Shown here one piece after another: positions 3,900 through 55,729 of a stretch of DNA of 64,000 nt. Source of the stretch: Paracoccaceae bacterium (GTDB taxonomy: Bacteria > Pseudomonadota > Alphaproteobacteria > Rhodobacterales > Rhodobacteraceae); contig CACGIS010000002.1 of the NCBI GenBank assembly GCA_902573175.1, positions 1 through 64,000 on the forward strand. The letters run 5' to 3'. A model generated the notes under the pieces. It ran no database searches and was not told where the DNA came from. It saw nothing but the letters and a program-made list of their open reading frames with translations. Each line of letters opens with the position of its first letter. Positions within the stretch are counted from its first letter, which is position 1. The translations under genes and the position numbers were made by a program.

Positions 3900-4024
3900 A
3901 TTCGTAATAAACTAATCCAGTTTAAAAGTTTAAAAGTATAACAATATGTGATTGGGCGAAACATAAATTCGTTCTTTCCTCCCTGTTGACTGAAGCCCTC
4001 ACATAAAGTTGAGGGCTTTTTTTT
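3900..4024 (+). ncRNA. Candidate small RNA with CCTCCC motif and intrinsic terminator
   Basis: The stretch downstream of the DUF3604 gene ends in a perfect terminator and carries the 15-mer TTTCCTCCCTGTTGA at 3975-3989, five bases before the stem. The same 15-mer occurs inside the loop of an unrelated terminator at 55694-55708. The CCTCCC core is complementary to the Shine-Dalgarno consensus. Sequence alone shows the motif and terminator. An independent or 3'UTR-processed sRNA is an inference, and the 5' end given is arbitrary. Confidence 0.35.
3994..4024 (+). terminator. Rho-independent terminator after the DUF3604 gene
   Basis: 8-bp perfect stem AGCCCTCA/TGAGGGCT (3994-4001 with 4010-4017), 8-nt loop, followed by seven T residues. 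It lies 95 nt after the DUF3604 stop. Confidence 0.88.
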
Positions 4025-4136
4025 GGTTTTTATAACCGTTGAGCGTTTGTTGGCAATTTCCCACTGATTACGTTTGGTAAGCCTTGCTAAAAAAGTTAAA
4101 TGAAGTCTCATTACGCTGTGAGTTAAAATAATTAAC

Positions 4137-4156
4137 AACCAAATAAAAATTTGGTT
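4137..4156 (+). promoter_or_regulatory. Hairpin abutting the ribosome-binding site of the next gene
   Basis: Perfect 8-bp inverted repeat AACCAAAT/ATTTGGTT with an AAAA loop. It ends three bases before the AAGGAG ribosome-binding site (4160-4165) of the small gene at 4175. It could stabilise the mRNA or modulate initiation, but being AT-rich it may be only weakly stable. Confidence 0.35.
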
Positions 4157-4174
4157 CATAAGGAGAATAAAATT

Positions 4175-4459
4175 ATGATTGTAATGCTAACTCAAGATCT
4201 TTCCAAAGGCTTTGTTTCATGGAAAGAAATGTATTTTGAAAATCAGGATGCTCTAGAATCTTTTGGAGCTAAACTCATCTTTGCAGGTCCACATAAAGAG
4301 GATGATAATAAGATGGTAGTTTTAATAGATTTTGATTCTCCTGATGCAATGAAGGCTTTTGCTACTAACGAAGAATTAAAGGCGAAACGTGCAGCAGCAG
4401 GAGCTATTTTAGAGTCCAACGTGGTAACCGTTATGGGTGACGAGTCCTTTACGAGTTGA
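4175..4459 (+). CDS. Small DUF3764-like alpha/beta protein
   Basis: A 94-residue cytosolic protein resembling the DUF3764 or ferredoxin-like (dimeric alpha/beta barrel) small proteins: MIVMLTQDLSKGFVSWKEM, a central MVVLIDFDSPDAMKAF strand-helix unit and a C-terminal beta strand. The start is ATG 4175 because AAGGAG sits 9 nt upstream; an in-frame TTG at 4151 would fall within the hairpin before the RBS. A paralogue sharing the SKGxxxW pattern lies at 36802-37071 on the minus strand. It is monocistronic, with its own terminator. Function unknown; family assignment is tentative. Confidence 0.75.
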   Translation: MIVMLTQDLSKGFVSWKEMYFENQDALESFGAKLIFAGPHKEDDNKMVVLIDFDSPDAMKAFATNEELKAKRAAAGAILESNVVTVMGDESFTS

Positions 4460-4484
4460 CAGTTGCGAAAATAGAGAAATTTCT

Positions 4485-4517
4485 AAAAAGCCCTGACCGA
4501 TGGCTGGGGCTTTTTTT
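4485..4517 (+). terminator. Rho-independent terminator
   Basis: AAAAAGCCC (4485-4493) pairs with GGGCTTTTT (4507-4515), giving a stem capped by a loose loop and continuing into a T7 run. It ends the small DUF3764-like gene. Confidence 0.8.
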
Positions 4518-4687
4518 ATTTACTTATCATTTTTTAATTTGTCGTGGCTTGAAACTTATAGTTACCTTCAATTTGAAATACTGAAAGAAAGAAGGAAAAT
4601 TAGAAGTTTACGCCCATCAGCTCTGCAGATAAGCTTTTTTGAAAAAGCAATTTCGTAATAGAATTGATTTCATTAAGGTACTGCAAA

Positions 4688-6115
4688 ATGATAGATACGA
4701 GCGATGAGCTTATAAAGCTGACAGCAACTGAAGCGGTTGCTTGTCTTCGTTCAAAGGAAGTATCCCCTCTGGATTTAGTTGAGGCATCTATTAAGCGCAT
4801 CGAAACTGTTGATACTGAAGTTAATGCTTTACCCATTCATTGTTTTGATCAGGCTCGCGATCAAGCTAAATCCTTCGATTTCGATAGGCATGCATCAAAT
4901 CCAAAATCACTTTGCGGATTGCCCATTGCTGTAAAAGATTACAATGATCTTGGTGGTGCTGTTACAACTTATGGCTCTCCTATATATGCCAATAACGTAG
5001 CACAAACATCTGACGCAACTATTAGAAAATTGGAAAGTAATGGGGCTATTGCTGTAGCCAAATCTAATGTTCCAGAGTGGGCGGGCGGTCATACCTTTAA
5101 TCCCGTTAATGGGTTGACCCGCAATCCTTGGGATATGGCTAAAAGTGCTGGTGGATCTTCTGGCGGTTCTGCAGCTGCTCTAGCAAGTGGGCTTGTTTGG
5201 TTGGCCACAGGTAATGATCTGGGTGGTAGTTTACGCACGCCAGCTGCGTTTAATGGAGTTGTTGGTTTACGGCCCAGCCCAGGGCGGGTTCCACGTGGGA
5301 TCCGTCTACCGTCTATGGATACACTTTGGGTTGAAGGGCCAATGGCACGAAATGTGGATGACTTGGCGCTTATGCTTGATGCTGGCGTAGGCCATCAAAT
5401 AGATGACCCGTTGTCTTTTGATCATTCTGGACCCTCTTTTGTTAATATTTTAAAGGGTACTGATACTACAAAGCGTGTTGCCTTTAGCCCTGATCTTTCC
5501 CTTGTTTCAATGGAGAAGGAAATCGCAGAAGTTTGTGGTGGTGCAACAACGCTGTTTGCAGATTTTGGAGCTGAAGTGACAGATGAAATCCCTGATTTCA
5601 CTGGCGTACTTGAGGCATTTCAAACGCTCCGTGCTGTTTTGTTTGCTACCATGATGGAGCCCATCCTGCAGCAGCATCGTAATAAGATAGCACCTGAGAT
5701 TATTGGTAATATTGAGCGTGGTTTGAACATCAAGCCGTCTCAGATATTTGAGGCCGAACGGATTAGAATAGAGCTTTTCAAGAAGATCTTACTCTTCTTT
5801 GAAACACATGATTTTCTAATTTGCCCCGCAGCATCTATAGCTCCATTCCCAGTTGATCAGCGTTATGTCACAGAAATTGATGGTAAGCCCTGCGAGACCT
5901 ATATCGACTGGTTTTCAATAACTTTCGCACTAACCATGACAGCCTGCCCTACGATAAGCGTCCCTTGTGGATTTACATCTGAAGGCTTACCAGTTGGTAT
6001 TCAAATCATGGGAAAACCTAGGGGTGAAGCCGCTCTATTACTGGTAGCAAAGCAATTTGAAAAAGCTATTGGTATAGCGGCACAGTTGCCGATTGCACCT
6101 CGAAAAGGTATTTAG
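4688..6115 (+). CDS. Amidase-signature (AS) family amidase
   Basis: A 475-residue amidase hydrolysing a carboxamide to acid plus ammonia or amine. The Ser-cisSer-Lys triad of the AS family is complete: Lys83 in VKD, cis-Ser157 in GGSSGGSAAAL, and nucleophile Ser181 in GNDLGGSLRTP; the 24-residue gap between the serines matches FAAH-type enzymes. Start chosen at ATG 4688 because AAGG lies 8 nt upstream; the frame is open further up to 4664. It is followed 14 nt later by a BKACE gene and then an M19 dipeptidase, which suggests a catabolic operon for an amide or N-acyl amino-acid compound. No GatB/GatC is nearby, so it is not a GatA of a transamidosome. Confidence 0.92.
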   Translation: MIDTSDELIKLTATEAVACLRSKEVSPLDLVEASIKRIETVDTEVNALPIHCFDQARDQAKSFDFDRHASNPKSLCGLPIAVKDYNDLGGAVTTYGSPIYANNVAQTSDATIRKLESNGAIAVAKSNVPEWAGGHTFNPVNGLTRNPWDMAKSAGGSSGGSAAALASGLVWLATGNDLGGSLRTPAAFNGVVGLRPSPGRVPRGIRLPSMDTLWVEGPMARNVDDLALMLDAGVGHQIDDPLSFDHSGPSFVNILKGTDTTKRVAFSPDLSLVSMEKEIAEVCGGATTLFADFGAEVTDEIPDFTGVLEAFQTLRAVLFATMMEPILQQHRNKIAPEIIGNIERGLNIKPSQIFEAERIRIELFKKILLFFETHDFLICPAASIAPFPVDQRYVTEIDGKPCETYIDWFSITFALTMTACPTISVPCGFTSEGLPVGIQIMGKPRGEAALLLVAKQFEKAIGIAAQLPIAPRKGI

Positions 6116-6129
6116 TTTAGGATATTCAT

Positions 6130-7074
6130 ATGAGTAAAAAGATCAATCATAACAACAAAGTCATTATAACCTGTGCAGTTACTGGTGCAATTCATACACC
6201 CACAATGTCTCCCTACCTTCCTATTACGCCTGACGAGATAACTGCAGATGCAATTGCTGCAGCAGAAGCAGGCGCTGCGATATTACATTTGCATGCTCGT
6301 CATCCAGAAACAGGGCAACCGGATCAGTCCCCTGATGGTTTTGCTCCTTTTCTGCCTCGGATAAAGCAGGGAACAAATTCGGTAATCAATATTACGACAG
6401 GCGGCAGTCCATATATGACGGTTGAAGAAAGGGTAGAACCAGCTGCTAAATTTAAACCAGAAGTGGCCTCACTTAATATGGGCTCGATGAATTTTGGTTT
6501 ATATCCAATGTTGGAGCGTTTTAAAGAATTTAAATTCGAATGGGAACGTCAACATTTAGAGGGTTCCCGAGATTTGGTTTTTAGGAATTCATTCAAAGAT
6601 ATCGAGCACGTGCTTAAAACATGTTACGGAAATGGTACAAGATTTGAGTTTGAGTGTTACGATATCTCTCACTTATACAATTTGGCACATTTTGTTGATC
6701 GAGGACTGGTAAAGGCACCATTTTTTGTCCAGTCGGTTTTTGGTTTATTGGGTGGTATAGGCCCTCATTCAGAAGACGTTATGCACATGAAGCGTACTGC
6801 AGATCGATTATTTGGAAAAGATTACCGTTGGTCTGTTCTAGGAGCTGGAGCAAACCAGTTTAGGGTTGCAGCACAGGCTGCCGCTCTGGGTGGCAACGTA
6901 CGAGTTGGTTTAGAAGACAGTATCTGGGCTGGGAAAGGCGAACTGGCAACATCAAATGCCGTCCAGGTTGTAAAGGTTCGCCAGATTATTGAAAGTCTTG
7001 GTCTGCAGGTAGCGACACCTGATGAAGCGAGAGAAATCTTATCACTCAAAGGTGGCGACCAGGTTAACTTTTAA
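6130..7074 (+). CDS. Beta-keto acid cleavage enzyme (BKACE, DUF849)
   Basis: A 314-residue TIM-barrel enzyme of the 3-keto-5-aminohexanoate cleavage (Kce/BKACE) family, which condenses a beta-keto acid with acetyl-CoA to give acetoacetate and a new acyl-CoA. Zn-ligand motif HLHAR (His53, His55) and the C-terminal VRVGLEDS segment with the metal-binding Glu are present, and length is normal. The beta-keto acid used varies among BKACE subfamilies and cannot be read from sequence here. Start ATG 6130 with AGGAT upstream; second gene of the amidase-BKACE-dipeptidase run. Confidence 0.92.
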   Translation: MSKKINHNNKVIITCAVTGAIHTPTMSPYLPITPDEITADAIAAAEAGAAILHLHARHPETGQPDQSPDGFAPFLPRIKQGTNSVINITTGGSPYMTVEERVEPAAKFKPEVASLNMGSMNFGLYPMLERFKEFKFEWERQHLEGSRDLVFRNSFKDIEHVLKTCYGNGTRFEFECYDISHLYNLAHFVDRGLVKAPFFVQSVFGLLGGIGPHSEDVMHMKRTADRLFGKDYRWSVLGAGANQFRVAAQAAALGGNVRVGLEDSIWAGKGELATSNAVQVVKVRQIIESLGLQVATPDEAREILSLKGGDQVNF

Positions 7075-7159
7075 TACTTTAAAAAGAAAATTCGAAAGAA
7101 CTAGACGTATCTGAAGGATCTTGTAGGTTTTACTCTGAGATTTGAAAGGTATTAGATAA

Positions 7160-8218
7160 GTGAAAACTCCAAAGCCTACTATATTTGATGGTCATAATGA
7201 CGTGCTTTCAAAAATTTTTAGTGAAGGTGGCCTTGATAGGGCGGCATCATTTCTGGAAGGGCGCGAAGGTGCAATTGACCTGAAAAAAGCAAAACTGGGC
7301 GGGTTCGGAGGTGGTTTTTTTGCGGTCTATGTTCCGTCACATTTTGATCTGGAATTCAGTTATCAAGAGATGGAAAAGGCCAGTTATAGTCTGCCTTTAC
7401 CAGAACCTATTGAGTGGAGTGAGGCAGTTGCTGTCGTTGCATCACAGGTAACAATCCTGCGTGAATTAGAAAGGTTAGGTTGTCTAACAATTTGCCATAG
7501 CGTATCTGATATTCGTAGTGCTTTTGAAAATGAAGAAATTGCTGCGATTTTTCATATTGAAGGCGCCGAGGCGATTGATCCAGATCTTCATATGTTAGAG
7601 GTCTTACATTCTGCTGGCTTGCGCTCTATTGGACCAGTTTGGAGCCGTCCGACGATTTTTGGAGAGGGTGTACCATTTAGCTTTCCATCATCTCCAAATA
7701 TTGGTTCAGGGCTCACTGAGCTAGGTATTGCACTAGTTAAGCGATGTAATGAATTGAATATCATGATTGATTTATCTCATTTAAATGAGGCTGGTTTCTG
7801 GGATGTAGCACGTCACTCAAACGCGCCCCTAGTAGCGACACACTCAAACGCTCATTCGATTACACAACATTCTCGTAATCTAACTGACAAACAGTTGCGA
7901 GCAATTGCAGATAGCGATGGTATGGTCGGTCTAAACTTTGCAACTGCCTTTCTACGTGAAGATGGAAAAATGCTATCAGACGTTTCATTAAGTCAGATGC
8001 TGAAGCATCTCGACTATCTTTTAGAAATTCTAGGTGAGGATCGAGTGGGGCTTGGATCAGATTATGATGGGGCAGTTATGCCTGAAAAATTGACGGATTT
8101 ATCCGGTCTTCCAAATTTGATACGGGCAATGAAACAGCATGGGTATGATGAAAAGATAATCAAAAAAATATGCCACGAAAACTGGTTACGTGTTTTGCAG
8201 AAGACTTGGGGTTGCTGA
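7160..8218 (+). CDS. Membrane-dipeptidase-type (M19) metallopeptidase
   Basis: A 352-residue M19 renal-dipeptidase family enzyme, a binuclear Zn amidohydrolase cleaving dipeptides, beta-lactam-like amides or similar substrates. Visible metal motifs are HND (His12, Asp14), HIEGAEA, the ATHSNAHS block, and GLGSDYDG near the C-terminus. There is no signal peptide or GPI-type tail, so it is cytoplasmic. GTG start (7160) with AAAGG 10 nt upstream. The 85-nt gap from the BKACE gene allows an operon. Context suggests hydrolysis of a dipeptide-like intermediate, but this is inference. Confidence 0.9.
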   Translation: MKTPKPTIFDGHNDVLSKIFSEGGLDRAASFLEGREGAIDLKKAKLGGFGGGFFAVYVPSHFDLEFSYQEMEKASYSLPLPEPIEWSEAVAVVASQVTILRELERLGCLTICHSVSDIRSAFENEEIAAIFHIEGAEAIDPDLHMLEVLHSAGLRSIGPVWSRPTIFGEGVPFSFPSSPNIGSGLTELGIALVKRCNELNIMIDLSHLNEAGFWDVARHSNAPLVATHSNAHSITQHSRNLTDKQLRAIADSDGMVGLNFATAFLREDGKMLSDVSLSQMLKHLDYLLEILGEDRVGLGSDYDGAVMPEKLTDLSGLPNLIRAMKQHGYDEKIIKKICHENWLRVLQKTWGC

Positions 8219-8233
8219 ATTGGAACTATTAAA

Positions 8234-8878
8234 ATGTTGAAACAGGAAAGAGCTGCGTTCATTTCTAAGCGTTTAAATGAGATCTACCCTGAAACGCCGG
8301 TTCCTCTAAACCATAGGGATGCGTATCAACTGTTAGTTGCCGTTTTATTGAGTGCGCAGTGCACTGACGCTCGGGTAAATATAGTAACACCGGGTCTGTT
8401 TGCTAAAGCTAGCAACGCTCAAGATATGGCAGTCTTAGAAGAAGATGAAATATTGGAAGCGATAAAATCTTGTGGGTTAGCGCCAAAAAAATCTCGTGCA
8501 ATAAAACGACTATCAGAAATTCTTGTCGAAAATTATAATGGAGAAGTCCCAGATGATTTTGCTTCATTAGAGGCTTTACCTGGAGTTGGTCATAAAACTG
8601 CTTCTGTCGTTATGTCGCAATGGTTTGGCTTTCCCGCTTTCCCCGTTGATACTCATATTCACCGTCTTTCGCAGAGATGGGGACTTACAAAAAAAAATAA
8701 TAATGTAGTAAAAACAGAACGTGATTTGAAACTTATATTTCCAGAAAATCTTTGGAACAAATTGCATTTGCAAATCATTTTCTATGGTAGAGAATTTTGT
8801 ACTGCTCGAGGATGTAGAGGTGTGCAGTGCGAAATATGCACGACCTGTTATCCGAAAAGAAAAAAACCATTTGATTGA
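8234..8878 (+). CDS. nth: Endonuclease III with unusual iron-sulfur cysteine spacing
   Basis: DNA glycosylase/AP lyase excising oxidised pyrimidines (214 residues). The helix-hairpin-helix LPGVGHKTA contains catalytic Lys121, and FPVDTHIHRL contains Asp139. The C-terminal cluster region has five cysteines (189, 194, 199, 202, 205), in the order C-x4-C-x4-C-x2-C-x2-C. The E. coli pattern is C-x6-C-x2-C-x5-C. Three Cys (189, 199, 205) align with canonical positions, but the second canonical position is Gly. A 4Fe-4S cluster is likely retained with a substitute Cys. The gene starts 15 nt after the dipeptidase stop. Confidence 0.93.
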   Translation: MLKQERAAFISKRLNEIYPETPVPLNHRDAYQLLVAVLLSAQCTDARVNIVTPGLFAKASNAQDMAVLEEDEILEAIKSCGLAPKKSRAIKRLSEILVENYNGEVPDDFASLEALPGVGHKTASVVMSQWFGFPAFPVDTHIHRLSQRWGLTKKNNNVVKTERDLKLIFPENLWNKLHLQIIFYGREFCTARGCRGVQCEICTTCYPKRKKPFD

Positions 8879-8950
8879 TTATTATTTATATTTCTAAAAT
8901 ATTAAATTAAATAACAAAGGGTCAAAATATAATTTTTTGGGAGCACCATT

Positions 8951-9097
8951 TTGAAACTGGCTAAAGAAACTATATGGCATTTTACTTGTGACTACTGTAA
9001 TTTATGGTGGTCTTTTGCTTCTTCAGACGATTATGAGCCTAAAGATAGTATTTTTTGCCCCCACTGTGGAAAGAAAAATAAAATAGAAGATAAGTAA
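8951..9097 (+). CDS. 48-residue zinc-ribbon protein
   Basis: Small ORF MKLAKETIWHFTCDYCNLWW... with paired CDYC and CPHC knuckles 29 residues apart, forming a single treble-clef or zinc-ribbon unit. Starts at TTG 8951 with GGAG 7 nt upstream. WHFTCDxC...CPHCG peptides of this type recur as tiny uncharacterised proteins in marine proteobacteria (recollection, not searched). It may bind nucleic acid or another protein. It converges with the CysK-like gene. Confidence 0.75.
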   Translation: MKLAKETIWHFTCDYCNLWWSFASSDDYEPKDSIFCPHCGKKNKIEDK

Positions 9098-9123
9098 CAA
9101 TAAAATTTAAATTTTTTACTGGA

Positions 9124-10089
9124 TTATTCATCCCAGAGTTTAGTGGAAAGATATTTCAATCCGCTATCACAAATTACCACAGCAATGGTTTTACCTGACA
9201 TATTTCCAGAAAGTAATTTTAGTGCTGCTGCCACATTTGTACCAGAAGAATATCCTCCAAATATACCCTCATACTTTGCCAGTTCTTTGGTAGTTTTTTG
9301 AGCTTCATCTCCCGATATTTGGATAAATCCGTCAACTGGAACTTTATCAAGAAACTTTAGTTCTGGAATGATATATCCCCCGCCTTGAATAGGGTGATTG
9401 GGGTTTGTAACTCTTTGTCCAGCTGCCACGGCTGCGCCCTCAGGTTCAACAACAAAACACTGAATATCGCTATTGCGCTCTTTTAGTGCTTTGGCGATGC
9501 CTTTATATGTGCCGCCCGAACCCAAGAAATCAGCAAAACCGTCTAAGTCTCCATTTGTTGCTTCCCAAATCTCGGGCGCTGTATTATAGTAATGAGCTTG
9601 CCAGTTTCCGTCTCGGTAAAATTGATCTGCCCTGAATGCTTGGCGCTGTTTGGTGATTTTCTTTGCCGCTTTGTCTACTAAATCTAGGTCCCCTCCTGAT
9701 ACTTGACCGGGACTGGAGGTGGGTAGCTGATCAACAAGAACCACTTCAGCTCCAAGAGAACGCATCATCCGGGCTCTTTCTTCGGAGTTCCCTTTGGACA
9801 TCACTGCTACAAACGGATATCCTTTCAGACCACAAACTATTGCTAAACCAGTTCCCATATTTCCTGAGGTTAGCTCAACTACGGTTTGCCCTGGTGAGAG
9901 AATACCTAAATTTTCTGCTTCTTCTATAATACCTAGTGCTGCTCTATCTTTTTTTGAAAACCCAGGATTTAAATATTCCAGCTTTGCCAGAATTGTTCCA
10001 TTTACACCATGTAAACTTGTCAAGCGATCTAATCGAACCAATGGAGTATTTCCGATCGCTTCGGCTGCTGATTTTAACACTTGGCTCAT
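9124..10089 (-). CDS. CysK/CBS-family PLP-dependent beta-lyase or synthase
   Basis: A 321-residue fold-type II PLP enzyme of the cysteine synthase/cystathionine beta-synthase family. The PLP Lys lies in NPGFSKKDRAA, the substrate-carboxylate loop is TSGNMG (canonical TSGNTG, so Thr is replaced by Met), the phosphate loop is GSGGTYKG, and the C-terminal CDSGLKYLST is conserved. These enzymes do beta-replacement on O-acetylserine, serine or related amino acids. The altered loop and the absence of cysE nearby leave the substrate open; diaminopropionate- or cystathionine-type chemistry is also possible. Strong RBS GGGAG precedes ATG 10089. Lies downstream of the proline-racemase-like gene on the same strand. 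Confidence 0.85.
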   Translation of the reverse strand: MSQVLKSAAEAIGNTPLVRLDRLTSLHGVNGTILAKLEYLNPGFSKKDRAALGIIEEAENLGILSPGQTVVELTSGNMGTGLAIVCGLKGYPFVAVMSKGNSEERARMMRSLGAEVVLVDQLPTSSPGQVSGGDLDLVDKAAKKITKQRQAFRADQFYRDGNWQAHYYNTAPEIWEATNGDLDGFADFLGSGGTYKGIAKALKERNSDIQCFVVEPEGAAVAAGQRVTNPNHPIQGGGYIIPELKFLDKVPVDGFIQISGDEAQKTTKELAKYEGIFGGYSSGTNVAAALKLLSGNMSGKTIAVVICDSGLKYLSTKLWDE

Positions 10090-10187
10090 TATAATGCTCC
10101 CAGAAGTGCATATTTATTAAATTTCATAATTATGTACTTCCTAATCGGATGATAGCGATGTCGCTAGGTTATTTCAAAAATTTAAAT

Positions 10188-11216
10188 TCAATTAACTCCC
10201 CATGTATCGCTAAGTCTATAACCTTCAGGCCATGGGTCTGTTGGTTCTAGTGTATGCTGATGGAGGCCGGTAATCCAACCTCTACCACTTATCTCAGGAA
10301 TAATTGCAGAGGTCCCGTTTAAATTACACTTTTCGACTATTTTCCCTTCAAAAGAAGATCCAATAATTGAAATCGCTTTTATCTTTTGACCAACCTTCAT
10401 TTCTCCCCTAGCCTCAAGAACTGCCATTTTGGCGGATAGCGCTGTGCCTGTTGGAGAACGATCAATTTTACCTGGTTTAATGGAAACGGCGGACTTAAAA
10501 GAAATGCAATCGTTGGACTGGTCCTCTATTTTGCTGAACTGACAAAACGAATAGTGCGTCCAATCAGTTATTGTTGGATGACGAAATCCGATTTGTTCGG
10601 TTGCAGCGTCAGTTATTTTTGCTCCTAGGCGAGCAAGTTCTGCCGCTTCGCTTGGATCAATTGAAAAGCCTAATTTTTTTGCATCTACTATTACAAAACT
10701 ATCGCCACCAAATGCGGTATCAGCAGAAATACTTCCGTATCCTTCAAGTTCCAAACTTGTGTCTAACTTATATACAAAACTGGGTAGATTCTGGACAAAA
10801 ATTCGCTCTGCTTTTCCATTTTTACATAGAGCTTTAACTTTAACCAAGCCTCCCGGCGCCTCTAGGAAAAAATTTGTAACGGGTTCTTCCATGGTTATCA
10901 GGCCATGATCAAGCAAGACGGTCGCAACACAAATTGAGTTTGAGCCAGACATTGGTGGGTTGTCTTCTGGTTCCATAATAATAAAGGCTGCAGATGCCTT
11001 TGGATTTTTTGGTGGAACTAGTAAATTAACATGTCTGAAGACGCCGCCCCTTGGCTCATTGAGTACAAAATTGCGCAGGACTTGGTCTTTTGCGATCCAT
11101 CTACTTTGGTCCCATAGGGTTTCCCCTGGAGGAGGCTCAACGCCCTCTATTATTACATCACCAACTTCGCCTTCTGCGTGTGCAGATACAACATGAACAG
11201 TTTTTATACTTACCAT
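10188..11216 (-). CDS. Proline racemase superfamily enzyme (trans-3-hydroxyproline dehydratase-like), Ser/Thr active site
   Basis: A 342-residue member of the proline racemase/hydroxyproline epimerase/3-hydroxyproline dehydratase superfamily. The two positions that are catalytic cysteines in proline racemase are Ser90 (MSGSNSI) and Thr256 (DRSPTGT) here. In the dehydratase subgroup the second Cys is Thr and the first is kept; with both replaced, racemisation is very unlikely and a dehydratase or other eliminase role is the best guess. Length and other blocks are normal, so it is not decayed. It sits 98 nt upstream of the CysK-like gene, on the same strand; a class IV aminotransferase is further upstream. 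Confidence 0.85.
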
Positions 11217-11435
11217 AGATTTCCGTTACTTTAAGTTTGGATCGCTGATTACAAATGTAGCAAAGGAACTGATCTAAATAAATAAGTTAATGGCTGGCTG
11301 GGACATCAAAATCTCAGCAGATTACAACTGCAATTTTCACGTAACTTAGCCAAGCCCCTTGACACTCTCTTTTTTTGATAAGCGAGTAGTTTAAAATCTA
11401 TTTCTACTTTATTTGTGAAGCAAAGTTAAAATTTC

Positions 11436-46621: not shown

Positions 46622-46660
46622 GATTACAGTTTTCGATTAATCATTTATTTGGGTGCTTTT

Positions 46661-47547: not shown

Positions 47548-47579
47548 AAAGCCTCCACATTACCCCGTGGAGGCTTTTT
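47548..47579 (+). terminator. Rho-independent terminator
   Basis: 11-bp perfect stem AAAGCCTCCAC/GTGGAGGCTTT (47548-47558 with 47567-47577), loop ATTACCCC, T run. It ends the hydratase 3 transcript about 100 nt after its stop. Confidence 0.88.
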
Positions 47580-47599
47580 ATCGAAATGCTCAGCCAAAT

Positions 47600-47727
47600 C
47601 TGATCCAGAAGGTTCCTTTCTTCGTATACACAACGTGTCATGACAAAATACATGCGCGGACAACCATGGTTAGTTGTCTTCATACCCCCCTGAAGCAACG
47701 CCTATTAGGCGTTGTTTTAGTTTTTAG
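47600..47727 (+). ncRNA. Candidate small RNA with two hairpins and a terminator
   Basis: Between the terminator and the next gene lies a 6-bp hairpin GACAAC/GTTGTC (47659-47664 with 47673-47678), a C6 run at 47685-47690, and a 7-bp terminator CAACGCC/GGCGTTG (47696-47702 with 47708-47714) with T-rich tail. This resembles an autonomous sRNA with a C-rich single-stranded stretch. No known family was recognised, and the 5' end is unknown. Confidence 0.35.
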
Positions 47728-47845
47728 AACTGGTGCTACATAATGAGAATAGTATCGCATGAGCGACGTAGTGTCGTTAAATTTACAGAATTCGATACCG
47801 AGTTGTGAAAAGGGATTTTAAAAATTCATAAAAATGATTTAGAAA

Positions 47846-48760
47846 ATGCTCTTTGATAAAAGCAAGGTTTTTAAAGTTCCTTTAGGCTCTGGTAATCGGC
47901 TTGTTGCAGGAAATAGCTTAGCTTTGATTTCAATATTTTTATTTGCAGCAGGCTTCCCAGCTGCAGAAGTTCTTCTAGATATATGGCACCCCATTACTCT
48001 GATGTTTTTTAGGCTCATATTGGCAGTCTCAACACTGGTTCTGCTCTGGGCTCTTATTGAAGGCGTATCCTCAGTTTTGAAGGCGCCTTGGTTAAAAGGT
48101 ATAAAAATTGGCCTATTAGGTTTTGGTTTGGGAACCAACCTATTACTGTTTGCGCAGTGGTTTACGGACCCTATTACGGTTGCTTTACTTGCAACCTTAA
48201 TTCCTGTTTCTGCAACTATTTTGGAAGTTTGGGATGGCCGAAGAAAACTTAATAGTAAGTTTATTCTTGGTTTGATTGCTTCGATAATAGGTGGATTAAT
48301 TGCCGTTAGTGAGAATATTTCAATCAATTTGGGGTGGGGAGTTTTGATGGCTTTAGGCTCAGGATTTTCCTTCATGTGGGCATCTGATAAAAGTGTAACA
48401 AGACTTTCTGAGCTATCTCCAATAGCCCGCTCATCGATTACTTTTACTGGGGCTGCCGTTTTTACCACGATAAGTTTTACAATATTTTTTACTTTAGGTT
48501 TAGTTGAAATTCCGAATTGGCTTACGAGCGATCAATTACTTAGCTTTGTAATTTATTCTGTAGCTGCCATGGCTATTTCCCAGGTTTTTTTTATAGCTGC
48601 CATTGAAAAAGTAGGAGTAGCAATCTCATCGCTTCATTTAAATTTTTCTCCCTTTTACGTGATGATAATCCTATTTGTACTTGGGGAAGCATGGGATTTA
48701 AGAGCAGTTATTGGTGCATCTATTGTTGCTTTTGGCGTTTGGCTAGCGCAAGTAAAATAA
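47846..48760 (+). CDS. EamA/DMT-family transporter (copy 5)
   Basis: A 304-residue ten-span EamA protein (SLALISIFLFAAGFPAAEVLLD; second half LSELSPIARSSITFTGAAVF). Substrate unknown. Followed by a TauD-type dioxygenase after a 156-nt gap. Confidence 0.9.
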   Translation: MLFDKSKVFKVPLGSGNRLVAGNSLALISIFLFAAGFPAAEVLLDIWHPITLMFFRLILAVSTLVLLWALIEGVSSVLKAPWLKGIKIGLLGFGLGTNLLLFAQWFTDPITVALLATLIPVSATILEVWDGRRKLNSKFILGLIASIIGGLIAVSENISINLGWGVLMALGSGFSFMWASDKSVTRLSELSPIARSSITFTGAAVFTTISFTIFFTLGLVEIPNWLTSDQLLSFVIYSVAAMAISQVFFIAAIEKVGVAISSLHLNFSPFYVMIILFVLGEAWDLRAVIGASIVAFGVWLAQVK

Positions 48761-48916
48761 GCTTCTCATTAACATTATGGGTGTATATCCAAAAACAAAA
48801 ACCAATTGCTTCGGCTTAGATCCGGTTTGTAAGTATAACGGGAACCAATCTTTGCTCTTTTTCCAAATTTAAAATTTGGTATTATGTGCTAGTACTATAT
48901 TTCTTCTAGCGAGTTA

Positions 48917-49777
48917 GTGTGTGTCAGCTTGGTAAAAGTTCGGGATCATAGTTATAAGTTTATATCAGCCAAACCTTTTGCTCCAAATTTAGGAGCTGAG
49001 ATATATGGAGTAGATCTCAGTAAACCTATTTCAGAGGAACAGTTTGGTGATATTTCCCAAGCATTTCTGGATCATCAAGTTCTATTTTTTAAAAATCAAA
49101 AAGAAATTCCTCCAGATGTGCATATTTCATTTGGTCAAAGATTTGGAGAGTTACACGCTCATCCTGCCGCGCCAACAATGAAGGGTTATCCTGAAATCTT
49201 TGAAATTCATGCCGATAAGAACTCTAAGATCGCAAATGGTGAATTTTGGCACTCGGATGTATCATGTGATGAACAGCCTCCTCTTGGAACTATGCTGCAA
49301 ATTCATATAGCGCCACTTTGTGGTGGTGATACAATGTTTAGTGATATGTATGCAGCTTATGATGCCCTTTCAGATCCAATTAAAAAGCTAATTAATGGAT
49401 TAAGTGCTACACATGAATCTGAGCACCTATATAGGGGCCGTTATGCCGATAGAGGCATGGATGACTCAGGGTCTATTTTCCCAACGGCTGTTCACCCTAT
49501 TGTTAGGACACACCCTGAAACGGGAAGAAAAGCGTTATTTGTAAATCGTACTTTCACAACAAAAATTAATGGATTGTCAGTTGACGAAAGTAATAGCATT
49601 TTGACACTGCTTTTTGATCAAGCTGAGCATATAAACCACCAAATTCGTTTTAGTTGGTCGATTAATGATATGGCTTTTTGGGATAATCGCTGTTGTATGC
49701 ATCGTGCTATCTGGGATTACTGGCCAGAGGAAAGAAAAGGTCGAAGAGTTACAATTAAAGGTGATCGCCCAAAGTAA
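48917..49777 (+). CDS. TauD/TfdA-family 2-oxoglutarate dioxygenase
   Basis: A 286-residue Fe(II)/2OG dioxygenase. Fe ligands are His112/Asp114 (FWHSDVS) and His262 (CMHRAIWDY), with 2OG-binding Arg273 or Arg277 in the C-terminal tail. Members cleave taurine, alkylsulfonates, 2,4-D, carnitine or aryloxy acids. GTG 48917 is the listed start; no convincing RBS, so the start may be slightly downstream. Substrate unknown; sulfonate use would fit the sulfatase nearby. Confidence 0.9.
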   Translation: MCVSLVKVRDHSYKFISAKPFAPNLGAEIYGVDLSKPISEEQFGDISQAFLDHQVLFFKNQKEIPPDVHISFGQRFGELHAHPAAPTMKGYPEIFEIHADKNSKIANGEFWHSDVSCDEQPPLGTMLQIHIAPLCGGDTMFSDMYAAYDALSDPIKKLINGLSATHESEHLYRGRYADRGMDDSGSIFPTAVHPIVRTHPETGRKALFVNRTFTTKINGLSVDESNSILTLLFDQAEHINHQIRFSWSINDMAFWDNRCCMHRAIWDYWPEERKGRRVTIKGDRPK

Positions 49778-49818
49778 AATTAACTTGATATAGGGATATT
49801 AAAGCTTAGCTTTTATTC

Positions 49819-50283
49819 ATGTTTTGGATTTTGTTCTTAATTTTTTTGCTAGCTTGTTTTTCAGCTGGAGCCACTGGTGGGCTTTTCCCACCAGGTTCGT
49901 GGTATTCAAGTTTAAAAAAACCTAGTTGGACACCTCCCAATTGGTTGTTTCCAGTGGCCTGGACCTCACTTTACATCTGTATGTCTTTTGCAGGAGCCAG
50001 AGCCGCTTTGTCGCCAGATAATAGTTTAGCAATGGCTCTTTGGTCTCTTCAAATTGCTCTCAATACGCTTTGGACACCCGTATTTTTTGGATTAAAGAAT
50101 TTGAAGTTGGGACTGATCGTTTTAATTGCACTTTGGCTGTCAGTTGCATGTACTATGATCGCATTATGGCAGTTGGATTGGCTGTCTGGATTGTTATTTT
50201 TCCCATACCTAGTCTGGGTCTCTGTTGCCGGAGCCTTAAACGCATCGGTTTGGCGATTGAATTTAGAGGAAAACAGCCAGTAA
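49819..50283 (+). CDS. tspO: TspO/MBR family tryptophan-rich sensory protein
   Basis: A 154-residue, five-helix membrane protein. Tryptophan-rich blocks WYSSLKKPSWTPPNWLFPVAWTSLY and LWTPVFFG, and N-A-S-V-W in the last helix, are characteristic. Bacterial TspO binds porphyrins and is involved in redox/light stress responses. Converges with the DMGDH-like gene. Confidence 0.95.
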   Translation: MFWILFLIFLLACFSAGATGGLFPPGSWYSSLKKPSWTPPNWLFPVAWTSLYICMSFAGARAALSPDNSLAMALWSLQIALNTLWTPVFFGLKNLKLGLIVLIALWLSVACTMIALWQLDWLSGLLFFPYLVWVSVAGALNASVWRLNLEENSQ

Positions 50284-50329
50284 CCAGAAGCTTGCAATAA
50301 TTACGCAGTCTTTTTTTGCGTGGTTCTAG

Positions 50330-52735
50330 CTAAACGCGCATTACCTTGCCCTCTGGATCGTAGGGTGAGGCTTGAATGACCGTCGCATCTTTTTCAACGC
50401 CAACAACATGCACCTTCAGTCTCTGGTTTTCATTAGCCAGGTCGTTATTCACTAACGCCATAGCCAGTGATTTCTTTAAAGTATGTCCATAACCACCTGA
50501 TGTCACAAATCCAACCAAACTGTCGTTGTTCCAAACAGGTTCATATCCACTTGCATCAGCATCGTCAGCGTCAATTTCTAGCATAACGAGTTTTTGGGCG
50601 GGTCCGTTACCATCTCTTTCTTTGATTGCTGCAGCCTGACCAATAAACTGCTCTTTTTCCCAGTCAATCCATCGGTCCATGCCTGTCATTCCAGGGGTAT
50701 ATCCTTGCGTGAATTCTGCTGACCAAATTCCAAAGCCTTTTTCTAACCTTAAAGATAATAAGGCGTTGAAACCAAATTCTCTAATGCCACACTCAGAACC
50801 TGCTTTAAGTAGTAACCTACGCAGGGCTATGTGATCACCCATTCTGCAGTGAATTTCATAACCTAATTCACCTGTGACGGATAAGCGGCCAACTTTCGCA
50901 CTGATCAAACCTATATCCATAGCAGCGCAGCCCATAAATTTTAACTCGTCAATAGAGAATTCAGTAAGCTTCGATATTACATCCTTAGAGTTTGGACCGG
51001 AAAGAGAAAATCCGGCCCAGTCTTCTCCAAGGTCTTTAATGGAAACACCATCGCTAAGGTGGTCACTGAACCACCGCATGTGCCAGGCGCGTAAATAGTA
51101 GGAACCCATGACCCACCAGGTTCCATCACCCCAATTGAATAAGGTTAAATCACCTTTTAATTTGCCTTCCTCGCTGAGCATCGGGGCCAAGCCAGCCCTT
51201 CCTGGTTTAGGAAGTTTTGAGGCCATTATGTTATCTAGCCAGGCCTCAGCATTGGGCCCTGAAACTTCAAAGCGGGAGAAGCCAGTTATATCAAGTAAGC
51301 CAACGCCAGTTCGGACTGCGTTACACTCATCTCCAACCATAGGAAAGGCATTAGAGCGTTTAAGCGAGGGATTTTCCTTAAATTCCTTCGATGCAAAGTA
51401 TAGAGGCACTTCGAGATCCCAACTATTTCCCCACTGGCAACCTGCTTCGGTCATTGCATCATGCGCTGGCGCCATTTTCAATGGGCGACCTGCAGGGAGT
51501 TGTTCATTTGGATAGGTCATAACAAAACGTCGGGAGTAAAACTGGCCTGTAGTTTGTTTGATAAATTCTTTATTTTCGGCAAATTTACCATATCTGGCAA
51601 CATCCATACCATAAACATCTGCTTCTGGCTCACCGTGGATCATCCACTCAGCTAGAGACTTGCCTACGCCTCCGCCTTGAAGAAAACCTGCCATCACAGC
51701 ACATGCACACCAGTAGCCTCGTTTTCCAGGGACTGGGCCCACAAGAGGATTACCATCAGGTGAAAAGGTGAAAGCACCATTTACCCAGGTTTTAATTCCA
51801 ACATCTTGCAAAGCTGGATAGCGCTCAAATCCAAGAACTAACTCATTTTCTATCCGATCTGTTTGTTCCTGAAAAAGCTCCATTCCATAGTCCCAGGGAG
51901 CGCCATCCATAGCCCAATGTTCATGATTAATTTCATAAATGCCAAGTAGAACACCTTTTTGATCCTGCCTCAAATAAGTGAAACCTTCCAGATCGACAGT
52001 CATGGGAACTTCAAAATCTAAGCTCTCTAGTTCAGCAATCGTATCTGATATCAAATAATGATGTTTTAAAGGAGATACTGGCAACTCAATACCAGCCATT
52101 CGCCCAATTTGCTTAGCCCACAAACCTCCAGCATTTACAACATGTTCGCAGCTTATTATCCCTTTGTCCGTTTGAATTTGCCAACCATCTTTTGTTTGCT
52201 CTAATGATTCAACTTTTGTATGCTCAAAATACTCAGCGCCGCGCTTTCTGGCTGCTTTTGCATAGGCGTGAACAGTACCTGTAGTATCCAAATAACCTTC
52301 CCGATCAGCCCACATACCTCCTAGTAACCCGTCAGTTGACATAATTGGGTTCAGTTCACGGGCTTCTTCTGGCGTAACAAGCCTACAGTCAGAGATACCA
52401 ATGGATTGATATACTCTATATGCCGATTGTAACCATTCCCATCGATCTGGTGTACCAGCCATGGTTAGACCACCGGTCATGTGCAGCCCAATATCTTGTC
52501 CACTTTCAGCCTCTATCTCTTGCAGTAAGTCGATAGTGTAAGCTTGAAGGGCAGAAATGTTCGGATCAGCATTCAGAGCATGTATACCACCAGCTGCATG
52601 CCAGCTCGAACCAGCTGTAAGCACTGATCTCTCAAGCATGCAAACATCTGACCAACCAAATTTTGCTAGATGGTAAATAACGGAGGCTCCTACTACTCCT
52701 CCACCAATAACAACAACCCTATAATGAGATTTCAT
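50330..52735 (-). CDS. Dimethylglycine/sarcosine dehydrogenase-like FAD oxidase with aminomethyltransferase (GcvT) domain
   Basis: An 801-residue enzyme. The N-terminal half is a DAO-type FAD domain (VVVIGGGVVGASVIYHLAKFG); SSWHAAGG contains the His that binds FAD covalently in DMGDH. The C-terminal half (from about residue 430) is a GcvT-type tetrahydrofolate-binding domain. This combination oxidatively demethylates dimethylglycine or sarcosine and transfers the C1 unit to THF. ATG 52735 is chosen because AGGGAG precedes it; an in-frame ATG at 52762 is less supported. Fits the MttB-family gene at the right edge: use of methylated amines. Confidence 0.92.
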   Translation of the reverse strand: MKSHYRVVVIGGGVVGASVIYHLAKFGWSDVCMLERSVLTAGSSWHAAGGIHALNADPNISALQAYTIDLLQEIEAESGQDIGLHMTGGLTMAGTPDRWEWLQSAYRVYQSIGISDCRLVTPEEARELNPIMSTDGLLGGMWADREGYLDTTGTVHAYAKAARKRGAEYFEHTKVESLEQTKDGWQIQTDKGIISCEHVVNAGGLWAKQIGRMAGIELPVSPLKHHYLISDTIAELESLDFEVPMTVDLEGFTYLRQDQKGVLLGIYEINHEHWAMDGAPWDYGMELFQEQTDRIENELVLGFERYPALQDVGIKTWVNGAFTFSPDGNPLVGPVPGKRGYWCACAVMAGFLQGGGVGKSLAEWMIHGEPEADVYGMDVARYGKFAENKEFIKQTTGQFYSRRFVMTYPNEQLPAGRPLKMAPAHDAMTEAGCQWGNSWDLEVPLYFASKEFKENPSLKRSNAFPMVGDECNAVRTGVGLLDITGFSRFEVSGPNAEAWLDNIMASKLPKPGRAGLAPMLSEEGKLKGDLTLFNWGDGTWWVMGSYYLRAWHMRWFSDHLSDGVSIKDLGEDWAGFSLSGPNSKDVISKLTEFSIDELKFMGCAAMDIGLISAKVGRLSVTGELGYEIHCRMGDHIALRRLLLKAGSECGIREFGFNALLSLRLEKGFGIWSAEFTQGYTPGMTGMDRWIDWEKEQFIGQAAAIKERDGNGPAQKLVMLEIDADDADASGYEPVWNNDSLVGFVTSGGYGHTLKKSLAMALVNNDLANENQRLKVHVVGVEKDATVIQASPYDPEGKVMRV

Positions 52736-52828
52736 TACATTACTCCCTAAACAGCCGCGCACATACAGATTGTCTCTGTTTTACGTTGAAGAACTTGGAA
52801 AGCTTACAGCTTATTGATTGAGTATTAG

Positions 52829-53200
52829 TTACCAAATTTCCAAAAGTTGAGTAATTGCAATAGCGCCAAAAATAAGTGTGATTACGACTTTAAACATGCC
52901 CCATGGCGCCGCTTTGAATTTTTTTCCAAAATTTGTTGCAGCTTCATCATCGTCCATATCATCAATATTAGCTTTAAAATCATCCATACAATCAAATGAA
53001 TTAATCATTACAAAAACAAACATCCCCACAATAGCCGCTGAAATTGCCAGCTGAGGTAAGTCTCCTCCTTGCGAAATGATATAAAGTGTAAATAGGTTAC
53101 CAAAGACTGCAATTGTGATGCCCCAATAGAGGTCTCTTCCTCTTGTCGCCCCTATAAATTGACGTCTATCACGATCAGCTGCTGTATTCATTTTTGACAT
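52829..53200 (-). CDS. Three-span membrane protein (family A of two)
   Basis: A 123-residue protein with three TM helices (WGITIAVFGNLFTLYII, LAISAAIVGMFVFVMI, FKVVITLIFGAIAITQLLEIW) and an acidic loop DDMDDDE. The C-terminal helix resembles that of the protein at 59412 (LKVVFAAIFVIIALVQLSAIY), suggesting a paralogous pair. GGAG RBS. Function unknown. Confidence 0.65.
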   Translation of the reverse strand: MSKMNTAADRDRRQFIGATRGRDLYWGITIAVFGNLFTLYIISQGGDLPQLAISAAIVGMFVFVMINSFDCMDDFKANIDDMDDDEAATNFGKKFKAAPWGMFKVVITLIFGAIAITQLLEIW

Positions 53201-53363
53201 TTTAAATCTCCATATTAAATCACTTAAATTTTAACATATGAGCCAGTTATTCTAAGATAATTGTATGATTACGTTGCGTCTTTCTGTTTAGGAAAGAAAA
53301 AGCGTTGCTGTATGATTACCATTTATAAATTTACTCTAAATCTAGTGTAATTATAATTTGAAT

Positions 53364-53390
53364 AAAAAAACCTCCGCCTTTTGGCGAAGG
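53364..53390 (-). terminator. Minus-strand Rho-independent terminator
   Basis: Read on the minus strand: CCTTCGCC/GGCGGAGG stem with AAAA loop (53390-53371) followed by T7. It would end the transcript carrying the small gene at 53623 and its structured 3' part. Confidence 0.75.
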
Positions 53391-53561
53391 TAAAGTTTCG
53401 GTTCACTATCACGGGAAGGCGATGTCAGCCGTTCTGTGAAAGAGTAATGCTACAATACAGAAATTTATATGCGGCTTTTTGGCATTCGTAATATAAAACC
53501 AATTAGAGTAAGAGAAAATTGTTCTCGCCATTTGCCGAAGCACAATGAGTTTGAGGATAGT

Positions 53562-53608
53562 GGCTGGGTTCGATGGGAGGAGAACCCGGCCGCGCCGAAA
53601 AATTTCGG
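53562..53608 (-). ncRNA. Structured 3'UTR with anti-Shine-Dalgarno-like loop
   Basis: Minus strand, starting 15 nt after the stop of the 62-residue gene. Hairpin 1 is CCGAAA/TTTCGG (53608-53595). Hairpin 2 is GGCCGGGTTC/GAACCCAGCC (one G-U pair) with loop TCCTCCCATC (53591-53562). The loop contains TCCTCCC, complementary to the Shine-Dalgarno region. No T run follows; the next terminator is at 53390-53364, so the transcript would be about 245 nt. The intervening region 53391-53561 has no gene. Confidence 0.45.
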
Positions 53609-53622
53609 TTTAAGATGAGTTG

Positions 53623-53811
53623 TCAGTTTAATTTGTAGTCAACTGGTGGAAATAGGTAGTCTTCGTCTCTTTTGATAATAGGGGCTTTTTGTCTAGGAAA
53701 TCTGGGCAAGCCCAATCCAGTATTTATCATGCGCAGGTAGTCACGATAGCTCATACTCATTAATGGTTTTATTGGGCCAATGAACCCTTCATCTTGATCT
53801 GACTTATTCAT
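53623..53811 (-). CDS. 62-residue hypothetical protein
   Basis: ORF MNKSDQDEGFIGPIKPLMSM... with GGAG RBS 6 nt upstream. Basic, proline-rich, no membrane segment. Family not recognised. Followed by the structured RNA element at 53562-53608, so it may be the mRNA from which a 3'UTR sRNA is processed. Confidence 0.6.
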   Translation of the reverse strand: MNKSDQDEGFIGPIKPLMSMSYRDYLRMINTGLGLPRFPRQKAPIIKRDEDYLFPPVDYKLN

Positions 53812-53893
53812 AGTAACTCTCCATTTTAAAAAATGGATTGCAAATTTTGTGCCACAAAATTACCTGCTTTATGAATTGATCGGTATGTTTTTT

Positions 53894-54088
53894 TTAAAAC
53901 GGAGCTGTGCCAATTTTTGAAACAAGATTTGCTATGCCGCCTGTATATGCAAAGTAAGTCCACCAAAGCCAAAGAAAGAAAATAAAAACTCTGAGTAACT
54001 TAGCTTTTGACCAAGTTTTTGGGTCAAATAATGTTAGTATGACCCACAAGAACCCACATCCGATAAGATATAAAACTAAACTGAACAT
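53894..54088 (-). CDS. 64-residue two-span membrane protein
   Basis: Two TM helices (LVLYLIGCGFLWVILTLF, VFIFFLWLWWTYFAY) with a short exposed tail. Weak AGG RBS. Function unknown. Divergent from the deiodinase-like gene. Confidence 0.5.
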   Translation of the reverse strand: MFSLVLYLIGCGFLWVILTLFDPKTWSKAKLLRVFIFFLWLWWTYFAYTGGIANLVSKIGTAPF

Positions 54089-54228
54089 ATTAACCTAAAG
54101 CTAAAAAATTTTTACAGTACAACAAGATAAATCTACTTATCTAAATATCAATAAAACATGAATTGGCATATATGATTTAATACCGTAGATAGCCTTTACT
54201 ATTTATATGACCTGTGAAGAGATCCAAC

Positions 54229-54900
54229 ATGCCCTACGAGCCAATAAAACTACCCGATCGTGTTCAATTACCTGAAGATGAGGCTATTCAACAATCCAAA
54301 ATCTTTTTCGAGTATATGTGTAAACGTCACTCAGTTAGAGACTTCAGTAGCAACCCAATTCCAAAAAAAATTATTGAAAATATTGTAGCTGCTGCCGGTC
54401 GGGCTCCCTCTGGAGCCAATCAACAGCCGTGGCACTTTGTTGCTATTAAGGATTTAGGAATGAAGAAAAGGATCCGGGAGGCAGCCGAAAAAGAGGAGCA
54501 AAATTTTTACACTGGTGGAGCAAGTGACGAGTGGATTTCTGCTTTAGAACCTATTGGAACTGGAATATCAAAACCTCACTTAACAGATGCTCCCTGGCTT
54601 ATTGTTGTATTCGCTGAGCGGTACGGGAAAAAAACTGATGGTTCACGGCGCAAAAATTATTACGTCCCTGAAAGTGTAGGAATAGCAATGGGATTTCTTA
54701 TTGCTGCAATTCACAACGCCGGATTGGTATGTCTTGAACATACACCCAATCCAATGAAATTTTTAAATGACTTGTGTGGAAGGCCAGAGAACGAAAAACC
54801 AATTATGATACTACCGGTTGGCAATCCAAGCGAAGATGCAAATATTCCAAAAGCGGCAAAATTGAAGAAACCTCTAAATGAGATTTTGACAGTTTTTTAA
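54229..54900 (+). CDS. Iodotyrosine-deiodinase-like nitroreductase-fold flavoprotein
   Basis: A 223-residue FMN-dependent nitroreductase-fold protein. RHSVRDFS (FMN phosphate binding), APSGANQQPWHF and GLVCLEHTPNPMKFLNDLCGRPENEKP match mammalian iodotyrosine deiodinase (IYD) closely from memory. The EEQNF segment aligns with the substrate lid of IYD, but one or more of the lid residues that contact iodotyrosine (Tyr/Lys) seem changed, so the halogenated or phenolic substrate may differ. Possible alternatives are other nitroreductases or BluB. ATG 54229 preferred over GTG 54214 because AGAG lies 8 nt before it. Confidence 0.85.
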   Translation: MPYEPIKLPDRVQLPEDEAIQQSKIFFEYMCKRHSVRDFSSNPIPKKIIENIVAAAGRAPSGANQQPWHFVAIKDLGMKKRIREAAEKEEQNFYTGGASDEWISALEPIGTGISKPHLTDAPWLIVVFAERYGKKTDGSRRKNYYVPESVGIAMGFLIAAIHNAGLVCLEHTPNPMKFLNDLCGRPENEKPIMILPVGNPSEDANIPKAAKLKKPLNEILTVF

Positions 54901-54979
54901 TTTATGGAATATTTGGTTTGAATATATATAAAAAAAATGTTTCTGGGTTTTGATATATCTGTTGTTTTAAAAAGGATAG

Positions 54980-55459
54980 GTGAAAGTTAAGATGGTGCAG
55001 CCTAAAATGAAAGTTGTGCTAGTCGAACCGGAAATACCATTTAATACTGGTTCAATTGGTAGAACTTGCGTAGCCCTTGATTTGGAACTGATCTTAATTG
55101 GCCAACTAGGTTTTTCCTTGGATTCATCTTCGGTAGCTCGATCGGGAACCCGCTACTGGCAATTTGTTGAAATTAGCCTTTATGATAGTTGGAATAGGTT
55201 TCTTCTAGAACGCTCACCGCTTGCCGAACAACTTTATTTGTTTGAAGAAGATGGATTAGAAAGCTTTTACATGCCAAATTATCATCCAGAGGCATTTTTA
55301 GTATTTGGTTGTGAGTCCAAAGGGCTTCCAAAATCAATTCGCGAAAGTATGAAAGATAGAATTTTTTCACTTCCAATGAAAAATGAAGCTGTCAAATCCC
55401 TTAATTTGGCAAATACTGCAACGGCAGTAGTCTACCAAGCAATGCGAGATTATTTGTAA
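54980..55459 (+). CDS. trmL: tRNA (cytidine/uridine-2'-O-)-methyltransferase TrmL
   Basis: A 159-residue SpoU-class methyltransferase modifying the wobble nucleotide of tRNA-Leu. Motif 1 PEIPFNTGSIGRTCVA, motif 2 LVFGCESKGLP and motif 3 SLNLANTATAVVYQ form the SAM-binding deep knot. Starts at GTG 54980, or ATG 54992 four codons later. Confidence 0.93.
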   Translation: MKVKMVQPKMKVVLVEPEIPFNTGSIGRTCVALDLELILIGQLGFSLDSSSVARSGTRYWQFVEISLYDSWNRFLLERSPLAEQLYLFEEDGLESFYMPNYHPEAFLVFGCESKGLPKSIRESMKDRIFSLPMKNEAVKSLNLANTATAVVYQAMRDYL

Positions 55460-55677
55460 AAATAAAATTGGTTATTGAATTAATTGATTGTCTAGGGATG
55501 AGTTCGCGAATTTAGCCAAATCCAAGATTAGCCTAATCACATAAAGTTGGTGTAATAAGCCTTCTGAGATCAATTAAAAATAATTTTTCTACTGAAACAG
55601 CTTGCTTATGAAAAGATGATAAAAATCTAAGTTGGCATGAAAAATGCCTATATCACTCTATTAACCCCGCGGGTACT

Positions 55678-55729
55678 GGGTCTCTAATAGCTTTTTCCTC
55701 CCTGTTGAGCCGATTAGAGACCCTTTTTT
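55678..55729 (+). ncRNA. Terminator-hairpin with CCTCCC loop, candidate sRNA 3' end
   Basis: 11-bp perfect stem GGGTCTCTAAT/ATTAGAGACCC (55678-55688 with 55713-55723) and T6 tail. The 24-nt loop contains TTTCCTCCCTGTTGA (55694-55708), identical in 15 of 15 bases to 3975-3989. It has no gene directly upstream on this strand within 200 nt (trmL ends at 55459), so a free-standing sRNA is plausible. As a terminator it is confident; as an sRNA it is inferred. Confidence 0.6.

Follow-up and report, generated by a model that had tools for sequence, protein, structure and literature searches.

Results

We analysed a 64,000-nucleotide stretch of a Paracoccaceae bacterium (contig CACGIS010000002.1, assembly GCA_902573175.1; hereafter the window), in which the 15-mer TTTCCTCCCTGTTGA occurs at 3975-3989 and again at 55694-55708, both on the plus strand. 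A sequence-only reading of the window had noticed this pair of identical words, one just before a terminator and one in the loop of an 11-base-pair terminator stem, and had suggested a family of small RNAs (sRNAs) that pair with Shine-Dalgarno (SD) sequences. Both copies proved to be exact. They lie in two conserved units, locus A and locus B, which are probably the genes of two trans-acting sRNAs that share one seed and block SD sites, most likely on messenger RNAs (mRNAs) for substrate-binding proteins. The window has a guanine-cytosine content of 39%, and its host falls in a genus of Rhodobacteraceae. Its closest named records, among them AG-343-P20 and MED-G52, were assemblies from single cells and metagenomes and, by their names, marine.

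Locus A (3945-4024, plus strand, with a guessed 5' end) consists of a weak hairpin, an exposed 15-mer and a terminator. In the predicted fold, 3954-3960 pairs with 3968-3974, and the 15-mer follows with a mean probability of being unpaired of 0.79 (0.74 for its first ten letters, the 10-mer). The word directly adjoins the stem at 3992-4019 of a standard intrinsic terminator, as the earlier reading had it. The fold of 3930-4024 gave a z score of -4.2. The locus begins about 45 nucleotides (nt) past the stop codon of the gene at 1578-3899, which has a weak DUF3604 match, and a DUF3764 gene lies downstream; an amidase is also among the neighbours.

Six genomes of the genus carried a full downstream DUF3764 orthologue with at least 77% identity, and locus A was kept in four of them (G000, G006, G014 and G010). 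In the other two, G011 and G007, the sequence upstream of the DUF3764 gene differed and locus A was absent. G005, in which the DUF3764 match was partial (39 residues), stands outside this count. Across the four genomes the linker CTCCCTGTT[GA]ACT was invariant while the first hairpin drifted; the 10-mer was exact in three and the 15-mer in two. The word AGTATA upstream of locus A was conserved in all four genomes and may be a -10 element. Between locus A and the DUF3764 gene, the stretch ACTGATTACGTTTGGTAA at 4063-4080 was also largely conserved in these genomes.

Locus B (55663-55729, plus strand) is a one-hairpin candidate of 67 nt, again with a guessed 5' end. Its predicted fold, with a z score of -4.4, starts with a mini-hairpin of four pairs (55664-55667 with 55671-55674) and a 3-nt spacer. 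These are followed by a terminator-like hairpin of 11 pairs (55678-55688 with 55713-55723), as had been described before, with four more inner pairs and then six T. The 15-mer lies in the loop of this hairpin, with a mean probability of being unpaired of 0.83 (0.97 for the 10-mer). The 10-mer is thus predicted to be mostly unpaired in both RNAs.

In an alignment of nine sequences (eight genus genomes and the named relative L106), 59 of the 67 columns of locus B (88%) were invariant; the proportion was 30% over the 100 nt before it, 5% at greater distance on that side and 37% on the downstream side. The 10-mer was exact in all nine sequences and the 15-mer in seven, the remaining two having a GATGA ending. 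A dyad, GGCAT-N5-ATGC(C) (55634-55648, plus strand), lies 15-29 nt upstream of the locus in all nine, with the last C present in five, and could be an operator or the -35 region of B. A trmL match was found in 11 of 16 genus genomes, eight of which kept locus B downstream. These were all eight genomes whose trmL was at least 77% identical; the three genomes without B had a trmL of about 60% identity. Outside the genus, 33 of 80 named trmL loci were examined. Six carried locus B, all of them in close relatives, and 26 did not when CCTCCC was sought within 600 nt downstream; the last offered 2 nt of sequence only. Relatives, to which the sequence-only reading had pointed as a check, spoke for both loci.

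Two further observations concern the surroundings of trmL and B. The three genus genomes without B (L081, L082 and L083) have in common a terminator-ended stretch 3' of trmL, GAGCGTCCTG...GGTGACACC, which had no Rfam match at the gathering threshold. In the window, a genus-conserved block at 55777-56066 with GTATACA and TTGTTGACTTTT precedes an open reading frame (ORF) of 62 amino acids (aa); a weak zinc-ribbon match there was below the cut-off.

To what extent the 15-mer exceeds chance was judged in the window and in the whole assembly (G000, 1,530,974 bases in 101 contigs, 58.8% complete). With up to two mismatches, the window contained three matches when 0.13 were expected, and none of 100 dinucleotide shuffles reached three. 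The third match, with one mismatch, lies at 59393-59407 on the minus strand, antisense to the ribosome-binding site (RBS) preceding an ORF at 59412. With at most one mismatch, the whole assembly held only these three places (3975, 55694 and 59393), and a backward-read control found none. The motif is therefore not common in this genome, in keeping with the earlier proposal. The repeat alone is weak evidence, because 21 15-mers, including TTTCCTCCCTGTTGA, are present twice on the plus strand of the window (many overlap each other), so the decision falls to the relatives. CCTCCC itself is found at 12 places when both strands of the window are counted. Outside the genus we found 29 near-copies of the 15-mer, 21 of them with loci, and the antisense strand of 11 of these 21 reads as an RBS before a frame of more than 100 aa. 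The RBS TCAACAGTGAGGAAA at 59393-59407 is 14/15 complementary to the 15-mer and precedes a 117-aa membrane-protein-like ORF, which may be a local target; the same RBS recurs in G006, G015 and G001.

The first ten letters of the 15-mer are UUUCCUCCCU, identical to the published core of the alphaR8 sRNAs (PMC12559287), and GUUGA completes the word. The claim that its CCTCCC can pair with SD sequences is supported in that the word contains an anti-SD core known from alphaproteobacterial sRNAs.

Pairing of this core to RBSs was assessed in five genus genomes (G000, G006, G010, G002 and G011), in which all 30 sites of its complement, AGGGAGGAAA, and all 19 sites of AAGGAGGAAA were read. Seven AGGGAGGAAA sites were antisense to A, B or a third element, locus C, described below. 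Of the other 23, 12 had a frame of 100 aa or more after them; with L326 dropped as an RBS because its site is inside a histidinol dehydrogenase gene, 11 RBSs remained. Seven of the 11 precede transporter substrate-binding proteins according to Pfam (TctC, OpuAC, SBP_bac_8, Peripla_BP_6, NMT1, Peripla_BP_4 and DctP), and the other four precede genes for a DUF2147 protein, a SoxA-type cytochrome, a molybdopterin oxidoreductase and an alpha/beta hydrolase. The one in the window's own genome is the DctP gene (L319), with AGGGAGGAAA in its leader at 3476-3485 on the minus strand of contig 10. After the 19 AAGGAGGAAA sites came three frames that reached 100 aa, one with an ATG start and two with TTG/GTG starts that are apparently internal to genes, and none was substrate-binding as judged by eye, without Pfam. 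The difference (7/23 vs 0/19) had a Fisher p of 0.011, although the data had been seen before this protein class was picked. A scan of 58 window proteins gave no match to a substrate-binding family. The link to transporter targets is suggestive.

Two more elements with related loops lie on the minus strand, in the 3' region of a 62-aa ORF (53623-53811) that had no Pfam match up to E 0.1. Locus D comes first (53562-53591), a hairpin with the loop TCCTCCCATC, which contains UCCUCCC; this is the TCCTCCC at 53575-53581 that had been reported before. Locus C (53364-53432), a hairpin and then a terminator, follows; in G015 and G006 its loop carries the exact 10-mer TTTCCTCCCT, whereas in the window and in G002 the loop is worn. 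Of eight loci compared, six had C and seven had D, with a ninth (L039) outside the counts because it gave no anchor. In an alignment without G002, a near copy of G000, two pairs of the D stem were changed on both sides, both from G015, a number that 13 of 500 shuffles also reached. The loop of D was altered in G004 and G015.

Two small proteins flank the region of C, D and B (52829-53200 and 59412-59765); their C-terminal ends look alike by eye, and neither had a Pfam match above the cut-off. Elsewhere in the window, AATTGCATTTGCAAAT, with a palindrome inside, is present twice (8760-8775 and 58949-58964) and might be an operator, and a 22-base direct repeat occurs at 56194-56235 in two copies with 20 bases between.

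Discussion

In our reading, A and B would be transcribed as sRNAs and would depend on Hfq. Their exposed UUUCCUCCCU(GUUGA) would pair with AGGGAGG-type SD sequences and block ribosome entry on target mRNAs, so that these would be repressed; the regulon would most likely consist of mRNAs for transporter substrate-binding proteins. Locus A has the layout of the alphaR8 RNAs (MmgR/SisA), and B would be a minimal variant whose seed is presented by the terminator hairpin itself.

A simpler explanation is that both loci are plain terminators, A ending the transcript of the 1578-3899 gene and B that of trmL, and that the common word is a coincidence. The standard intrinsic terminator of A and the recurrence of other 15-mers in the window agree with this. 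A terminator loop, however, need not be kept, yet in B the loop and the 5' part match the stem in conservation, and B is found about 200 nt past trmL, behind a conserved upstream block. In locus A it is the first hairpin that drifts and the linker that is kept; a known sRNA core, moreover, forms part of the word. We therefore regard this explanation as very improbable. Another possibility concerns origin: A and C could be RNAs cut from the 3' untranslated region (3'-UTR) of an upstream mRNA, for which SorX, cut from that of ompR-1, is a precedent in the available part of PMC8625941. The start of A soon after a stop codon with no promoter above shuffle level, and the position of C behind the 62-aa ORF and D, would suit such an origin; the AGTATA word conserved before A would not, if it is a -10 element. 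The chances of this are appreciable, somewhat short of even, and it does not apply to B, which is preceded by a conserved dyad of its own.

Several results weigh against two sRNAs with transporter targets. No sigma-70-like promoter above shuffle level was found for A, nor any such promoter on the plus strand upstream of B. With about 24 nt outside the inner pairs, the loop of B would be unusually long in an intrinsic terminator, and the terminator scan, which accepts no loops other than those of 3-8, found none at B. No mRNA start in the 58.8% complete genome had a full complement of the 15-mer, the best being the 14/15 at 59393. Locus A scored 24.5 bits with the RF00519 (suhB/MmgR) model, whose gathering cut-off is 41, and is therefore termed alphaR8-like and not filed in RF00519; two unrelated CU-rich RNA models scored level with the suhB model at this locus (27.0 and 24.3 bits). 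A and B were below Rfam cut-offs, and there was no Rfam match at the gathering threshold in the window or in six genus loci. Weak matches to RF00519, with E up to 1, also appeared in 12 of 14 control genomes.

The transporter link fared worse in the family than in the genus. The comparison covered 61 genomes, with loci examined for 30 of the 91 rows (86 places) of CAACAGGGAGG, 30 of the 52 of its permuted form ACCAAGGGAGG and all 13 of ACCAAAGGAGG; Pfam was run on 8 of the 11 frames for the first word, 10 of the 21 for the second and 9 of the 11 for the third. In favour of such sRNAs, CAACAGGGAGG before an ATG turned out to be an sRNA read antisense (CCTCCCTGTTG and then a terminator, by a script criterion) in 18 of 30 loci, vs 2 of 30 for the permuted word. 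Eleven frames of 90 aa or more came from its 30 loci, one of them substrate-binding. ACCAAGGGAGG gave 21 such frames with at least 10 substrate-binding proteins; the ten given to Pfam had been picked by eye as likely ones and all ten were, and an eleventh (L299) resembles one. The longer seed complement thus failed as a target mark at the family level, and what goes with transporters is the AGGGAGG core alone and not its longer extension. For ACCAAAGGAGG, which has AAGGAGG after the same ACCA start, 3 of 11 were substrate-binding, from 13 sites vs 52. Since substrate-binding proteins are often highly expressed, a strong RBS may explain the link. The RNAs could accordingly be sRNAs without a transporter regulon, whose core acts on any strong AGGGAGG site. 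The broad target set of SisA in Caulobacter, given in the excerpt of PMC12559287, would fit this, as would the results with the longer complement and ACCAAAGGAGG; in the genus, however, AAGGAGGAAA preceded none of these genes (19 sites, by eye) and AGGGAGGAAA preceded seven. This reading is a serious contender, at slightly under even odds, and two SD-blocking sRNAs with substrate-binding targets remain our preferred account.

A bolder idea, which we hold to be rather doubtful, is that AGGGAGGAAA is an off-consensus SD address label on uptake genes, read by A, B and C as independently controlled anti-SD RNAs. If so, the cell could turn down much of its nutrient uptake at translation, one RBS spelling would be linked to nutrient-uptake genes as a rule, and B would be a stripped-down, one-hairpin form with terminator and seed in one. 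The loci would add to the alphaproteobacterial class of anti-SD RNAs a set missed by Rfam models, in an AT-rich ocean lineage, and would offer a very compact sRNA architecture in which the terminator loop is the seed.

A literature search found no recognised description of RNAs of the A or B type in this lineage. The earlier proposal of an sRNA family held in its substance, namely conserved units of sRNA form with a known anti-SD core; the family names it gave, CcsR and alpha-r14, found no support. Up to E 10, cmscan matched no such family for the region of A or for those of B, C and D, the presence of these models in Rfam being unchecked. Repeated CCUCC is a mark of CcsR and alpha-r14, whereas A and B lack the repeat. 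The loop of D, CUCCUCCC, resembles their CCUCCUCCC motif. CcsR follows ccaF1 in the available text of PMC8625941, and D likewise follows a small ORF, though one without a Pfam match. By function alone, the AbcR sRNAs of Rhizobiales, which regulate ABC transporter transcripts according to the accessible part of PMC5461406, are an analogue; sRNAs of Ruegeria pomeroyi are often antisense to transporter genes (excerpt of PMC4809877), with no family link shown.

The better comparison is with the alphaR8 RNAs (MmgR, SisA-D) and with SorX and SorY. SorX (RF02784) and SorY (RF02651) of Rhodobacter have a CCUCCCUGUUG core before a terminator, as here, and act on transporter genes in the excerpts of PMC8625941 and PMC7074977. 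Against the SorX cut-off of 46.6 bits, A scored 12.9 and B 14.6. The SorX model matched in 28 of 61 relatives and in none of the 16 genus genomes. Within the family Rhodobacteraceae, RNAs of the SorX and SorY type carry CCUCCCUGUUGGAC ahead of a terminator. Such RNAs, with CCTCCCTGTTGGAC and a terminator, were common, accounting for 18 of the 30 loci found with the reverse-complement word (L245-L274).

The available part of PMC12559287 ascribes three traits to alphaR8 RNAs (a weak hairpin, UUUCCUCCCU in single-stranded form and a terminator), with MmgR of Sinorhizobium meliloti and SisA-D of Caulobacter as members and a core that acts by anti-SD pairing. In the same text, SisA represses many mRNAs through this core and is itself sponged by the CrfA RNA. 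AlphaR8 has several siblings per genome, as in this lineage. AGACUU follows the core in canonical members, whereas GUUGA follows it here. In most species one copy neighbours a formylglutamate amidohydrolase gene, with siblings elsewhere; this gene is not beside A, nor was its product among the 58 window proteins scanned. In the search of the 61 genomes, RF00519 gave 15 matches above the cut-off, none in the genus, and a genus match of about 80 nt (L211, the one read of seven such stretches) had no CCUCCC. The mmgR promoter contains a regulatory dyad in the excerpt of PMC8401924, and B also has an upstream dyad, a likeness of layout between uncompared sequences. Locus A shares the core, the weak hairpin, the exposure of the core and the terminator with alphaR8 (Rfam RF00519, suhB), and by this analogy should work like an alphaR8 RNA. 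Locus B shares UUUCCUCCCU (9/9), but carries it inside a terminator-like loop and not before a separate terminator; it departs from the alphaR8 layout and, by extension, should work alike. The difference in layout between A and B fits either deep divergence or convergence.

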